A stretch of 64,000 bases of DNA from contig NZ_JACVOK010000002.1 in NCBI RefSeq assembly GCF_018882465.1, positions 682,001-746,000 on the forward strand, in the 5' to 3' direction. The DNA comes from Polynucleobacter sp. 73C-SIWE (GTDB lineage: Bacteria; Pseudomonadota; Gammaproteobacteria; Burkholderiales; Burkholderiaceae). Shown piece after piece: positions 25,739-32,413 of this stretch. Positions within the stretch are counted from its first letter, which is position 1. Each line of letters starts with the position of its first letter. Position numbers and translations under genes: made by a program. Under the pieces are notes generated by a model. That model was not told the DNA's origin. It ran no database searches and saw only the letters and a list, made by a program, of their open reading frames with translations.

Positions 25739-28480
25739 TTAGAGTGAACGCGCTACTTCAGTAACTTCGAACACCTCGAGCTGATCGCCTTCTTTAATGT
25801 CGTTGTAGCCTTTTAATGACAAACCGCACTCAACACCGGCACGAACTTCTTTGGCATCATCTTTAAAGCGCTTGAGTGAGTCGAGTTCACCAGACCAGAC
25901 AACCACGTTGTCACGTAAGAGGCGAACACTTGAAGTGCGTTTAACAACCCCGTCAACTACCAAGCAACCGGCGATAGCGCCAACCTTAGATACCAAGAAG
26001 ACTTGACGGATCTCAACGAGACCAGTGATTTCTTCTTTCTTATCTGGAGTCAACATACCACTCAGAGCCAACTTCACTTCATCAACAGCGTCATAAATAA
26101 TGTTGTGATAACGAATATCAACACCATTGTTTTCAGCTAACTTACGTGCTGCTGCATCTGCACGTGAGTTAAAGCCGATGATGACTGCCTTAGAAGCAAC
26201 CGCTAAGTTCACGTCTGTTTCAGTAATGCCGCCCACAGCCGCGTGAACGATTTGTACTTTCACTTCTGGTGTAGAGAGCTTCATTAAGGATTGTGATAAA
26301 GCTTCTTGTGAGCCCTGTACGTCCGCCTTGATGATCAATGGCAACAACTTCGCTTCAACTGCGCCCTCTTCCATGTTTTCCATCATGGTCTCGAGCTTGA
26401 ATGCCTGTTGTTTAGCCAGCTTCACGTCACGGAACTTGCCTTGACGGAACAGTGCGATCTCACGAGCCTTACGCTCATCAGGAACTACCTGCACTGATTC
26501 ACCAGCAGCCGGAACATCGGCCAAACCTTGAATCTCCACCGGAATGGATGGGCCAGCCTCGTTACATGGCTTGCCGTTTTCATCCATCATCGCGCGGACA
26601 CGACCGAATGTAGAACCAGCTAAGAGCATATCGCCACGCTTGAGCGTTCCAGACTGAACCAAAATGGTTGCTACTGGTCCCTTACCTTTATCTAAACGCG
26701 CCTCAATGACTAAGCCTTGTGCTGGAGCATCTTTAGCAGCCTTGAGTTCCAAGATTTCTGCTTGCAAGAGAACGTTCTCTAATAAAGCATCAATACCTTC
26801 GCCTGTTTTTGCAGACACTGGAATAAAGGGCACATCGCCACCGTACTCTTCAGGCACAACCTGCTCTGCTACCAACTCAGTCTTGACGCGCTCAGAATTG
26901 GCTTCTGGCTTATCAATCTTATTGATCGCAACAACTAAAGGCACACCACCAGCGATTGCATGGTGAATCGCTTCTTTAGTTTGCGGCATCACACCGTCAT
27001 CTGCTGCCACGACCAAGATCACGATATCGGTTGCCTTAGCACCGCGAGCACGCATTGCCGTAAAGGCTTCGTGACCTGGGGTATCTAGGAAAGTAATCAT
27101 GCCGCGTGGTGTTTCTACGTGATAAGCACCAATGTGCTGAGTAATGCCGCCTGCTTCACCGGTAGCCACTTTAGCTGCACGAATCTTGTCGAGCAAAGAA
27201 GTTTTACCGTGGTCAACGTGACCCATCACAGTAACTACTGGAGGACGTGGCAATAACTCTGCATCGTGACCATCAGTACCCAGATCTAAATCTGGATCAT
27301 CTAATTTCGCTGCATGGGCTTTGTGACCCATTTCTTCAACGATGATCATGGCTGTATCTTGATCAAGTACTTGGTTAATGGTGACCATTTGGCCCATACC
27401 CATTAAAAGCTTGATCACTTCTGCACTCTTCACTGCCATTGCATGAGCTAACTCAGCAACAGTAATCGTTTCTGGAACATGAACATCACGCACCACTGGT
27501 TCTGTTGGAACCTGGAAGTTGGTATCAACGTTGGCTTCAGCAATTTGACGTTGCTTCTTGCGACCACCGCCAGAGCGCCAGCCACCAACACCACCGGATA
27601 CATCACCACGAGTTTTAAGACCACCAGGCTTCTTGGCGCCTTCTTCTTGCCAAGTAGATGATGTCTCTGAGGACTTAATGGTTTTACCGCCAACTTTAGC
27701 GGGGGATTTTTTCTTGTCTTCAGCACCTTCTGCTTTTGCAGGTTTGTGCAAAGTACCTTTTTTCGCCTCGTCGGCAGCAACTTCGCTTGGCGCTTTAAGG
27801 ACGCGAGCTGGCGCACTCATCATGTCGCGAATCGCTAAAGCTTCTGCTTCAGCGGCGGCACGACGTACACGAATTTCAGCTAGCTCTTTTTCTTTGCTGG
27901 CTGCTAAATCCTTTGCAGCCTTATCTATCTTCGCTTTTTTCTCAGCAGCTGCAGGGGCAGCATCTGCTTTTGCGTCACTCTCAGCCGGTTGTGCAACTTC
28001 TTTTTGACGAGCATCTTCTGCCGCCTTCATTTCAGCTTCTTGACGAGCCAATAACTCAGCTTGACGAGTAGCTTCAGCTGCGCGTTTTTCTAATTCTTCT
28101 TCAGAAAGAATCGGTTTAGCTGCTGCCGCAGGTGCAGCTGCCTTTGCAGGGGCCGCCTCAACTGCAGGAGCTTTATCGCCCGCTTTAACTAGTACACGCT
28201 TTTTACGTACTTCAACCTGAACTGTACGAGTACGCCCAGCAGAATCCGCCTGACGAATCTCAGAGTTCTCGCGCTTGATTAAAGTAATCTTTTTACGAGC
28301 GCCAGCCTCAACATTACCGTGTGCTTTTTGCAAATGCTCAAGCAGAACAGTTTTGTCTTTTTCGGTAATGCTCTCATCCTCAGAAGCTTTGTCGATCCCA
28401 GCTGCCTTCAATTGCTCCAAGAGGTCAGCCGCGGTTCGTTTGAGTTCCTTAGCGAGTACTTTTACTGTTGTTGTTGCCAT
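25739..28480 (-). CDS. infB: Translation initiation factor IF-2
   Basis: GTPase of 913 residues that brings fMet-tRNA to the 30S subunit. An N-terminal IF2 assembly domain (residues 1-55), a long charged Ala/Lys/Glu-rich linker (about 60-300) and a second N-domain (about 330-400) precede the G domain, with [18 protein letters not shown] at about 416, [15 protein letters not shown] and NKIDKP. The C-terminal domains include [20 protein letters not shown]. Length fits betaproteobacterial IF-2. It is between nusA (13 bases) and rbfA in the operon that begins with rimP. Confidence 0.98.
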
Positions 28481-28493
28481 GCACTACTTCCTC

Positions 28494-29975
28494 TCATGAA
28501 GTAAACCAATGTTCGCGCGCTTTCATGATGAGCGTTTTCGCAGTTTCTTCGTCAATTTGTGTCGCCTCAACTAGCTCATCAACAGCCAGTTCAGCAAGGT
28601 CGTCACGGGTGTGAACTTGATTGTCAGCAAGCTTAGCAATCAGCTCTGTTGTCATTCCTTCTAAAGAACGTAAGTCTTGGGAAACTTCACCAATACGCTC
28701 TTCTTTTGCCAACTCCATCGTTAGCAAGGAATCACGAGCGCGAGTACGCAACTCATTCACGGTATCTTCATCGAATGAATCAATCTCTAGCATTTCAGAA
28801 AGCGGCACATAAGCTACTTCTTCCAATGTATTGAAACCTTCTTCAATCAAAATATCAGCAACTTCTTGGTCAACGTCTAATTTATCCATGAATAATTGAC
28901 GTACAGAAGAAGCTTCTTTTTCTGTTTTCTCAGCAGACTCTTCTGGAGTCATGATGTTGATCTGCCAACCAGTCAAATCACTTGCCAAACGCACGTTCTG
29001 TCCGCTACGGCCAATGGCAATTGCCAAGTTCTCTTCATCAACAACAACATCCATCGCATGACGCTCTTCGTCAACCACGATTGAAGATACTTGTGCCGGA
29101 GCCAAAGCACCAATCACAAACTGGGCTGGATCTTCAGACCACAACACAATATCCACTGCTTCGCCTGCAACTTCGTTACGTACTGCAGTAACGCGTGTGC
29201 CACGAACACCAACACAGGTACCAATTGGATCGATGCGCTTGTCATAAGTCACAACAGCAATCTTGGCACGGATGCCAGGGTCACGGGCTGCGCCTTTAAT
29301 CTCTAATAAACCCTGCTCCATCTCTGGAACTTCATTCTCAAACAACTTAATCAAGAAGTCTGGGCAAGTACGAGAGAGTTCGATCTGTGGACCACGCGCT
29401 TCACGATCTACTTTGAGGATGTAAGCACGTACACGATCACCAGAACGTAAATTCTCTTTTGGAATCATTTGATCGCGACGCAATAAAGCCTCAACACGAC
29501 CAGATTCAATAATCAAACCATTCTTGTCAGCACGCTTCACGGTACCGGTCATGACTTTTTCGCCACGCTCAAGGTAGTCGTTCAAGATTTGCTCACGCTC
29601 AGCATCACGAATGCGTTGCAAGATCACTTGCTTAGCAGCTTGCGCACCGATACGGCCAAATGCTAAAGATTCGATCTGCTCTTCGATGTAGTCGCCAACT
29701 TCCATGTCAGCAAGTTGCTCTTGAGCTTCGAACTGCAAAATCTCTTTATCAGGCTCTTGCAGACCAGCTTCGTTAGGAACTACCAACCAGCGACGGAAGG
29801 TTTCGTATTCGCCTGACTCACGGTCAATCGATACACGAATATCCACATCTTCGTTGGGATAACGTTTCTTAGTGGCTGAGGCCAGTGCCATCTCTAGCGC
29901 CTCAAACACAATAGCTTGATCAACGTTCTTTTCACGCGCTAGGGCGTCTGCCAACATGAGAACTTCTCGGCTCAT
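28494..29975 (-). CDS. nusA: Transcription termination/antitermination protein NusA
   Basis: RNA polymerase-binding factor of 493 residues controlling pausing, termination and antitermination. Layout: N-terminal polymerase-binding domain (1-130), S1 (about 135-200, [19 protein letters not shown]), two KH domains (about 230-345, with [21 protein letters not shown] and [18 protein letters not shown]) and two C-terminal acidic AR repeats (about 365-490). Its ATG overlaps the rimP stop as ATGA. In E. coli NusA represses its own operon through leader terminators; the hairpins upstream of rimP here suggest the same kind of control. Confidence 0.98.
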
Positions 29976-30463
29976 GACTTTCTTCCTTTGAAATCAATAA
30001 CAGGGACCAACCGAGTCTTATCGACCTCGGCTAAAGAAAACTCCAATTGAGAGGGCTGACCATCAGCACCCTCAAACACCAAACCAAATTTCGCATCAGG
30101 CGAATTCAACTCACCAGTCAGCAAACCTTGCAATACACCACGAAAATTCTTGCGGGTACCAACAGCCACACGCAACTTCAAATCCACTTCCATTCCAGCA
30201 AAGCGCTCAAAATCTGCCGCACTCTTCACAGGACGATCTAAGCCTGGTGAAGAAATCTCCAATCGCTCGTAAGGAATGTTCTCAACTGGCAAGGTATAGC
30301 TCAGTTGATGACTTACCTTCTCGCAATCGAGGACAGTAATCAAACGCTCGTAATCCGGGTTTTCAATCGTGACGCGCAGCAAACCTCCAGCCTCACGCTC
30401 AATATCTACTAACGTGTAGCCTAAGTTTTCCAGCTCTGCAGAAATAACCTGCTGATCCTTCAC
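29972..30463 (-). CDS. rimP: Ribosome maturation factor RimP
   Basis: 30S assembly factor of 163 residues. N-terminal alpha/beta domain with [21 protein letters not shown] and the cation-binding [14 protein letters not shown] region, then [26 protein letters not shown], the strongest family signature, and a C-terminal Sm-like barrel with [12 protein letters not shown]. The start is GTG at 30463, supported by AAGGGAAG just upstream; a nearby ATG is out of frame. First gene of the rimP-nusA-infB-rbfA-truB operon. Its leader is unusual and described separately. Confidence 0.96.
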
Positions 30464-30487
30464 AACTTCCCTTCATACCAAAACGGC

Positions 30488-30513
30488 AAAAAAAAATGGG
30501 CTTCAAAGCCCAT
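30488..30513 (-). terminator. Strong intrinsic terminator just upstream of rimP
   Basis: ATGGGCT and AGCCCAT form a 7-bp stem around four bases, followed by nine T residues on the minus strand. The T run ends about 25 bases before the rimP GTG, leaving no room for a promoter after it, so it must act on transcripts that reach rimP. Confidence 0.8.
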
Positions 30514-30570
30514 ATTCTCGAAATTCAGAACAGGCCGACTTACGTTGATCGCAACATCAGTCGGTAACAA

Positions 30571-30594
30571 CTAAAAACAGCAGAAACCTGCTGT
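30571..30594 (-). terminator. Intrinsic terminator between rluB and rimP
   Basis: ACAGCAG and CTGCTGT form a 7-bp stem with a 4-base loop, followed by TTTT, 43 bases after the rluB stop. It may end rluB transcription; it also lies just after a TATAAT box, so it could be the first leader hairpin of the rimP operon. Confidence 0.65.
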
Positions 30595-30637
30595 CAGACC
30601 AAAATTATAGCTGATTTTTAGGGAAAACTGTTAGAAA

Positions 30638-32413
30638 TCAGAAGCTTTCGCCTGGATTTCTCGGTTTTCTAGGGCCCTTATTGAAAGGTTTTCGCCCTTT
30701 TGGTGCGCCCCGTTTAGGTCCATTTCCTGGGCTTTGGGGATTCGCTGTCACAAAAGCAGACTGGCCATGATGCACTTTCTTGCCCTTGCTACGGTTTTGA
30801 CCTTGGCCACCGCCCCCACCCTGACCGCCGCCTTGACCAGGTCTGCCGCCTTGGGTGCGACCACGAAAAGGACCGCGCCCTTCGCCTGAACCACCACCTT
30901 GACCACCAGGTCTGCCGCCTCTACCCTGATGCGTCATGCCGTTATGGCCACTAGCAAGGGTTAGGGCATCGCGTGAGCCCCAGTAAGAAACCGAGGTTTG
31001 CATTGGATCAGGTTGGAAATCTGCAGCAGCAGGATTGCGACTTTGACCATTCGGATTTGGATTGCGACCCTTATCTTGAGGCTGTGGCATTTTTAAGCCG
31101 GCAGACTTCATCAAGTTGTAGATACCGCCAGCCTCAATCTCTTCCCATTTCCCCCGCCTTAAGCGCGGAGGCAATAAGAAAATGCCATAACGGGTTCGGA
31201 TTAAGCGAGATACCGTATGACCAACTGCTTCAAACATACGACGTACTTCGCGATTGCGCCCCTCACTTAATGCAACGTGGTACCAGCGATTTGCACCATC
31301 ACCACCACCCATTGCTAGGCGCAAGAATTTAGCTTGGCCATCATCGAGCGTAATACCACTCTTCAATTGCGCTGTATTTTCTTGACTCAACTCACCCAAG
31401 ATCCGTACAGCATATTCACGTTCAACGCCGTAACGTGGATGCATTAAACGATTTGCTAACTCACCAGAAGTGGTAAATAACAAAAGACCTTCGGTATTAA
31501 AGTCCAAGCGGCCAACAGCAATCCATCGACCTTGACGTGGCTTTGGCAAACGATCAAAAACGGTTGGACGACCTTCAGGATCGGATTGGCTAACAATCTC
31601 ACCAGCAGGCTTGTGATACATGATCACGCGTGGCGGTTTAGTCTGAATCTTGCGATGAACTGGCTTCCCATTGATACGTACTTGATCTGTTGGCCCAATA
31701 CGTTGGCCGATATGTGCGGGTAACCCATTAACCGATACGCGCCCTTGAATAATCAAGTCTTCCATATCGCGACGGGATCCCATGCCAACGTCAGCCAATA
31801 CCTTATGTAACTTAACAGTATCTTCGTCGTCAGCTTCATCATCTAAACCATCGAGATCTGACCAGACTTCATCACGCAAACTCAGCGGTAAGTCATCAAC
31901 GTTTGCAAATTGCAAACTACTCATTTCTTCTTCTGTCGGCGCATCAGGATCTTCATCCTCACGTGAGCGCTGTGCGCGCTGGGCGCGACGTTCTGCACCA
32001 GTCTGATGAGAAACCTCGCTCTCATTCAGGCCATCTGGATTTTTTACTTCCAATACTTCGGGAGCATCTAAAGCAGCATCAAATTCACCAGAAACAACGG
32101 AGGCAAATAAAGCTTCGCTTTCTGCAGGATTGGGAGCTAATTTGGCGGATTGATTACCTTGATTGTTACCACCCTCGCGCGGACCATTACCTTCGCCGCC
32201 TTCACGACGAGGCCGATCCTTATTAAAAGGACGTTTCTTATTAAATGGATGCTTCCCTGAGCCCGCACGGCGTGGATGTCTTGGACCACGCTCACCACCT
32301 TCGCGACCTTCGGCTTTATTGCCATCCTCATTGGATGGGCCTGCGTCAGCGCTAGATGGAGTTACGGCTTGATTTACTACCGGGAATGAATCGTTTTCGT
32401 TAGAGCTTGTCAT
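30638..32413 (-). CDS. rluB: 23S rRNA pseudouridine(2605) synthase RluB with long low-complexity ends
   Basis: Protein of 591 residues, much longer than the roughly 290-residue E. coli enzyme. The core is standard: an S4 RNA-binding domain (about 200-255, [21 protein letters not shown]) and an RsuA/RluB catalytic domain with Asp in [14 protein letters not shown] (about 300) and [20 protein letters not shown]. The first 195 residues are charged and disordered (Arg/Gly/Asn, then acidic); the last 150 are rich in Gly, Gln, Arg and Lys (about 30660-31000), resembling RGG-type RNA-binding tails. It lies six bases after scpB. Confidence 0.95.

Follow-up and report, generated by a model that had tools for sequence, protein, structure and literature searches.

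The leader of the rimP-nusA-infB operon in Polynucleobacter, a freshwater bacterium, is a genuine form, apparently peculiar to this lineage, of a known transcription attenuator, in which two conserved hairpins, designated P1 and P2, precede an intrinsic terminator close to the first gene. The operon codes for a ribosome-assembly factor (rimP), the termination factor NusA (nusA), and an initiation factor (infB), and we favor with modest confidence a reading, drawn by analogy, in which NusA stimulates stopping at the leader terminator as feedback on its own operon, with P1-P2 acting as a NusA-binding or pausing module.

Organization of the rimP leader

The DNA analyzed here is a 64,000-nucleotide stretch of the genome of Polynucleobacter sp. 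73C-SIWE (the window), in which the minus-strand gene order is scpB, rluB, leader, rimP, nusA, infB, rbfA, truB, and typA (Table 1). The assignment of rluB rests on a score of 286.6 bits with NF007976, just below the cut-off of 290, and on a match above cut-off to the pseudouridine synthase model TIGR00093. The named proteins closest to the NusA encoded here come from Polynucleobacter records.

Table 1. Features of the rimP leader and its neighboring genes in the window
Feature	Coordinates	Strand	Basis
infB	25739..28480	-	TIGR00487, 836 bits, above cut-off
nusA	28494..29975	-	TIGR01953, 392.2 bits, above cut-off
rimP, GTG start (30463)	29972..30463	-	NCBIfam NF000929, 193.4 bits, above cut-off
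Intrinsic terminator, GGGC/GCCC stem and nine T, rimP-leader motif	30488..30513	-	
P2, hairpin UGUUCU/AGAAUA, abuts terminator	30513..30532	-	Folding, alignment
P1, near-invariant 12-pair hairpin, internal G-A mismatch (5' GAU / 3' GUA core)	30535..30564	-	
P0, optional 5' hairpin just past expected start site	30576..30595	-	Sequence, folding
-10 box TATAAT, leader promoter	30604..30609	-	Sequence and conservation in genus
rluB, gene upstream of leader, same strand	30638..32413	-	Best model NF007976 RluB

A preliminary description of this DNA had listed the TATAAT box, the 12-pair hairpin with one G-A mismatch (P1), and a last hairpin with nine T residues about 25 bases before rimP, and all three are present; the terminator stem occupies 30513-30496, the nine T residues 30496-30488, and the gap from the T run to the rimP GTG is 24 nt. 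P2 is an additional hairpin missing from that description, and it can be extended via C30534-C30533 onto the 5' arm of the terminator. Together, P1, P2, and the terminator make up a unit of 78 nt (the element). The segment spanning them (30566-30488) has a folding energy of -27.5 kcal/mol (z, -4.96), a value that none of 200 shuffled sequences reaches. The number of terminator-like sites is in itself unremarkable, as a simple scan of 701 bases (30300-31000) finds two on the minus strand compared with 0.9 (SD, 0.8) in shuffled sequences. The terminator pattern has a single exact match in the window, and allowing up to two mismatches gives four matches (0.22 expected), two of which are one hairpin read on both strands.

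A -10 box is positioned upstream of P1 in all 94 Polynucleobacter loci carrying the element (TATAAT in 89, TACAAT in 4, and TATACT in 1), at distances from 10 to 91 nt (at least 37 nt in 74 loci, 27 nt in 3, 16 to 17 nt in 10, and 10 to 12 nt in 7); at the shortest spacings of 10 to 12 nt the transcript should start with P1. The best -35 hexamers at 15 to 19 nt match just two to five of the six TTGACA positions, and a scan of 30300-31000 finds no sigma-70-like site, the TATAAT box itself failing too for want of a -35 satisfying the scan's rule. For a linker of only 24 nt, the earlier view that no promoter fits after the last terminator is reasonable. The last hairpin might still be a mere terminator for rluB, which ends at 30638 on the same strand, with rimP transcribed from its own unseen promoter, but this is very improbable given the -10 box conserved before P1 in every one of the 94 loci, its location in the window between rluB and the hairpins, and the short distance there from T run to rimP.

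The region just past the expected start site had been described as carrying a terminator-like hairpin at 30571-30594. The hairpin (P0) is there, at 30595-30576, but its proposed terminator role does not hold up. P0 is possible in 64 of the 68 distinct spacers of at least 33 nt, which fold at -4 kcal/mol or below, and TTTT directly follows its stem in 34 of those 68; a further 18 distinct spacers (10 to 27 nt) are too short to accommodate it. P0 is thus an accessory 5' hairpin rather than a conserved terminator, and we rule out the latter role, as its sequence drifts, the T run is not kept, and the hairpin is optional.

Conservation and distribution of the element

RimP is detected in 137 of 151 genomes of the genus, and leaders were taken for 103 of these (30 plus 73 loci). 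The element is present by pattern in 94 of the 103 leaders, or in 93 by a stricter pattern that misses L149. It is letter-for-letter as in the window's own locus in 45 of the 93 loci compared, and 75 loci exceed 0.9 in element identity. In these 75, identity to the window has a median of 100% over the element, 84% over the 45 nt upstream, 83% over the 24-nt linker, and 88% over the 60 nt that follow, which are mostly the start of rimP. The element is therefore more conserved than either its flanks or the rimP start.

The stricter pattern yields 105 loci (93 anonymous and 12 named, with genomes partly shared) and 33 distinct aligned elements, and a covariance model was built from this 33-row alignment. 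At an E value of ≤0.001, 161 of the 186 genomes of the genus have a match to the model, as do 129 of 144 near-complete ones. There is one match per genome, except in G103, where a second match scores merely 28.4 bits; in the window's own genome the single copy scores 103 bits and the runner-up 15 bits. The preliminary description would have given up its proposal had the stems been absent from relatives; they are instead widely conserved, and its idea of a distinct architecture is supported by the presence of a conserved module upstream of the terminator.

We note two departures within the genus. At locus L149 (G103:C1:1617018-1617498), from a complete genome of 1.66 Mb, several changes break the P1 stem while P2 and the terminator are intact, and this P1 is possibly a decaying module. 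In genome G383, 99% complete by its record, neither the element nor RimP nor NusA is matched, and a stretch of sequence is probably missing.

The other nine of the 103 leaders (L165-L169, L172, L176, L177, and L181) belong to a sister clade, with RimP proteins 62 to 68% identical to that of the window; they keep the terminator but have, by eye, a different and shorter upstream stretch. In a search of 200 family genomes, 35 match at an E value of 0.01, of which 23 are from this genus and the remaining 12 score only 25.6 to 27.1 bits, one of them (G255) about 240 nt upstream of its rimP. Intact elements score 57.8 to 104.5 bits with the covariance model, whereas the top score among 57 loci scanned beyond the element's range is 26.3 bits; the Burkholderia and sister-clade hairpins that precede the terminator score no higher than this, their kinship to P1 being judged by eye. 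With these low scores outside and the weak family matches, the full P1-P2-terminator element appears to be specific to this lineage. P1-P2 is also dispensable for the basic attenuator, since the sister clade and most loci of other genera examined do without this form of it.

The terminator itself is far more widespread. A GGGC...GCCC-T5 hairpin is found by pattern ahead of nusA in 63 of 67 named loci (L044-L110), counted as the last pattern match within the first 2,300 bases, with leader position confirmed for part of them. The four loci without the pattern include L052, in which the sequence stops short of the leader, and L069, in which by eye the stem is present with a C ahead of the T run. 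The pattern is likewise present in 24 of 27 anonymous loci from other genera, and the three misses are L196, with the stem and a broken T run (by eye), and L204 and L210, with other stems. Burkholderia-group leaders (L074, L092, and similar) apparently carry, by eye, two mutually exclusive hairpins just upstream of the terminator, of the types CUGGGC/GCUCAG and CAGGUG...CACCUG, with the same terminator after both.

We read the leader as an attenuator because the one promoter element that can be seen lies upstream of a strong terminator close to rimP, the -10 box is present in all 94 loci, and the same terminator motif recurs in most other Burkholderiales loci examined. The attenuation proposed in the preliminary description is supported as a reading.

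Variation within the stems

Pairing holds in 97.0% of the cells of the 33-row alignment, and P1 has two pairs changed on both sides (columns 4-29 and 5-28); in L170, the pair closing the P1 loop is swapped from G-C to C-G, after re-gapping of its row. Among 500 shuffles, none reaches the observed covariation score or the count of both-sided cells, but the number of both-sided pairs (two) is reached by 219 and the pair types by 360, such that three of five measures beat nearly all shuffles and two do not. A tree-keeping covariation test (33 rows plus L149, 109 substitutions, and 100 simulated alignments) finds no significant stem pair. The best is 5-28, for which 0.3 such pairs are expected in 25 tests, and the top-scoring pairs of the whole covariation matrix are non-stem. 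The covariation check that had been suggested for the stems thus returns changes compatible with them but no pair significant in a tree-based null, and covariation cannot decide the matter because the element is too conserved.

In P1, the G-A mismatch becomes A-A in 5 of 33 rows, and the U-G pair beside it becomes A-G in 6 of 34 rows, so this pair is probably not an ordinary wobble; the apical loop is more variable than the bases flanking the mismatch. Other conceivable readings are a bulged-G (loop E) motif at the mismatch and a boxA-like sequence in the UGUUCU of P2. A varying loop with most mismatch-flanking bases hardly changing is what would be expected of a protein site, and it is conceivable that the attenuator is real but that P1-P2 is read by a factor other than NusA, such as RimP or a ribosomal protein, tying operon output to 30S assembly through a protein that sits on the mismatch region and tips the P2/terminator balance. 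Naville and Gautheret (PMC2965389) do name RimP as a possible effector, then prefer NusA. However, no likeness to a known site was found, with no Rfam family near its threshold, and the exact P1 core pattern occurs once more in the same genome (G000), within a desaturase-like coding frame (named by eye). We consider a different reader unlikely.

Two other roles for P1 were rejected. The core pattern also matches outside the leader in several other genomes, and P1 has no match in viral contigs, but membership in a regulon is rejected on the evidence of the window's own genome, where the covariance model gives a single strong match and the second core match is the one in the desaturase-like frame. 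A leader peptide is also rejected; the main clade does have an open five-codon frame inside P1 (ATG-TTG-N6-ACG-TAA/TAG), but the L043/L170 clade has AAG in place of the ATG or lacks it, and no Shine-Dalgarno sequence is seen for it by eye.

Folding of the growing transcript

P1 forms without excluding the terminator in those folds of the window leader that contain the whole of P1. The preliminary description had suggested this middle hairpin as a switch element, a role that the folds do not bear out, as the overlap with the terminator 5' arm comes from the extended P2 and not from P1. Folds of growing transcripts proceed from P1 to the extended P2, which takes up two bases of the terminator 5' arm, and then to P2 plus terminator. 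When transcripts are cut after the GGGC, 33 of 34 distinct leaders show pairing between the linker and this arm of the terminator. Nonetheless, 10 of 16 arbitrary two-base linkers placed in the window leader pair likewise and the terminator wins over the extended P2 once its 3' arm exists, so that this pairing argues only weakly for an antiterminator; the extended P2 is a possible handle for regulation in these models. In one fold including the last T residues, P2 is lost and the terminator stem grows into the T run; the 134-nt fold retains P2.

Taken further, the modeled folds would allow P1-P2 to be a lineage-specific RNA sensor of NusA or a ribosome-assembly protein that exchanges two end-to-end stacks. 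P1 stacked on the extended P2 would hold the terminator 5' arm and give read-through, and P2 stacked on the terminator would give a stop. This is a speculative model that we regard as rather doubtful.

At the other extreme, the terminator might set a constant low read-through with no sensing at all, and P1-P2 merely stabilize or shield the mRNA 5' end. P0 and P1 are indeed close to the 5' end of the expected transcript, there is no well-supported alternative fold, and all complete leaders folded form the terminator. We give such a fixed leak a low probability, as the near letter-for-letter retention of the paired bases exceeds the needs of a protective stem, and NusA feedback on the operon is reported in both E. 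coli and Bacillus subtilis (PMC12288461).

Relationship to described leaders and RNA families

Naville and Gautheret (2010; PMC2965389) have described this terminator as the 'rimP-leader' attenuator, with termination in cells a prediction from its sequence. These authors rank rimP first among genes predicted to be attenuation controlled, and they describe a GGGc...gCCC signature specific to rimP leaders, which is the most widespread attenuator that they list. They propose NusA as the protein involved and report a tandem terminator with an antiterminator in several Gammaproteobacteria. The Polynucleobacter leader shares the location directly upstream of rimP-nusA-infB, the GGGc 5' arm and gCCC 3' arm followed by a U/T stretch, and a spacing of 24 nt, within their 4 to 130 nt to the gene. 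It differs in having the conserved P1-P2, whereas the general form they present has no larger conserved element.

The Rfam family RF01770 (rimP, a gammaproteobacterial leader) has the same operon and terminal hairpin, but the window scores 18.9 bits with it (E, 0.87) against a gathering score of 47, and the family has no match at an E value of 0.001 in the window's own genome. A rimP RNA is also named in a figure legend of a Herbaspirillum paper. No Rfam riboswitch or leader family reaches its gathering score anywhere in the window, in which only a tRNA does so. Structured leader and intergenic RNAs found mostly in Polynucleobacter (icd-II, carA, and HRC-28-1) came from a search of the intergenic regions of two related genomes (PMC8632094), but these belong to other genes; rimP, nusA, and infB are absent from the main text of that report, and a prior listing in its supplements is possible. 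The known part of the leader is thus the terminator motif, and for P1-P2 we found no description in the literature searched and no Rfam family at threshold, with that supplementary listing the place where an earlier one may exist.

Two small RNA families touch the same region. RF02420 (Bp1_162), a candidate sRNA family from Burkholderia, spans the leader of rimP with its terminator in four of nine loci scanned (L074:1843-1939, L087:1818-1918, L071:1841-1940, and L061:1842-1938), with 74 to 117 bits, above the gathering score of 50, and in all cases on the minus strand, opposite nusA; a fifth locus, from Pandoraea (L055), scores 36 bits. The family is drawn opposite to the rimP strand, and the window matches it at 24 bits only, in antisense. 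Its source paper used RT-PCR on oligo(dT)-primed cDNA, which would not fix the strand, and RF02420 may represent the rimP attenuator with its strand assigned wrongly. The Xanthomonas sRNA family RF02233 (sX14) has a weak match at 30487-30575 on the minus strand (22.3 bits; gathering score, 80); sX14 accumulation drops strongly in an hfq mutant.

The terminated leader, of about 110 nt, could itself be a small RNA acting on other messages, which would account for its frozen sequence. Its near identity across the genus and the coverage of the Burkholderia rimP leader by RF02420, though on the opposite strand, are in keeping with such a function, but the bases conserved best are paired and the P1 and P2 loops vary, leaving no obvious free seed, and we find the proposal improbable.

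A proposed NusA-feedback attenuator and its implications

In the reading that we favor, transcription would start just after 30604, and P0 and P1 would fold, followed by P2 and then the GGGC/GCCC terminator. Part of the polymerases would stop at about 30488 and the remainder would read through into rimP. NusA, the product of the second gene, would raise stopping at the terminator, and the operon would thereby curb its own output; the conserved P1-P2 may be bound by NusA, or may delay the polymerase so that NusA can act.

This is proposed by analogy with two systems. A review (PMC12288461) reports for B. subtilis that the leader of the operon encoding NusA contains an intrinsic terminator stimulated by NusA itself. 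In E. coli, terminators are reported ahead of rimP, NusA regulates its own operon, and operon transcripts are elevated in mutants with reduced NusA termination. Reporters fused to the E. coli rimP 5' UTR and coding sequence give a lower signal in a Rho mutant, and control there may therefore not rest on the terminator alone.

The RNA recognition site of the effector at rimP leaders is left undefined in the account of Naville and Gautheret (PMC2965389). The Polynucleobacter leader, with a near-frozen module and a short-form sister clade as a natural control, offers a small, well-delimited system for studying recognition by NusA or its partners.
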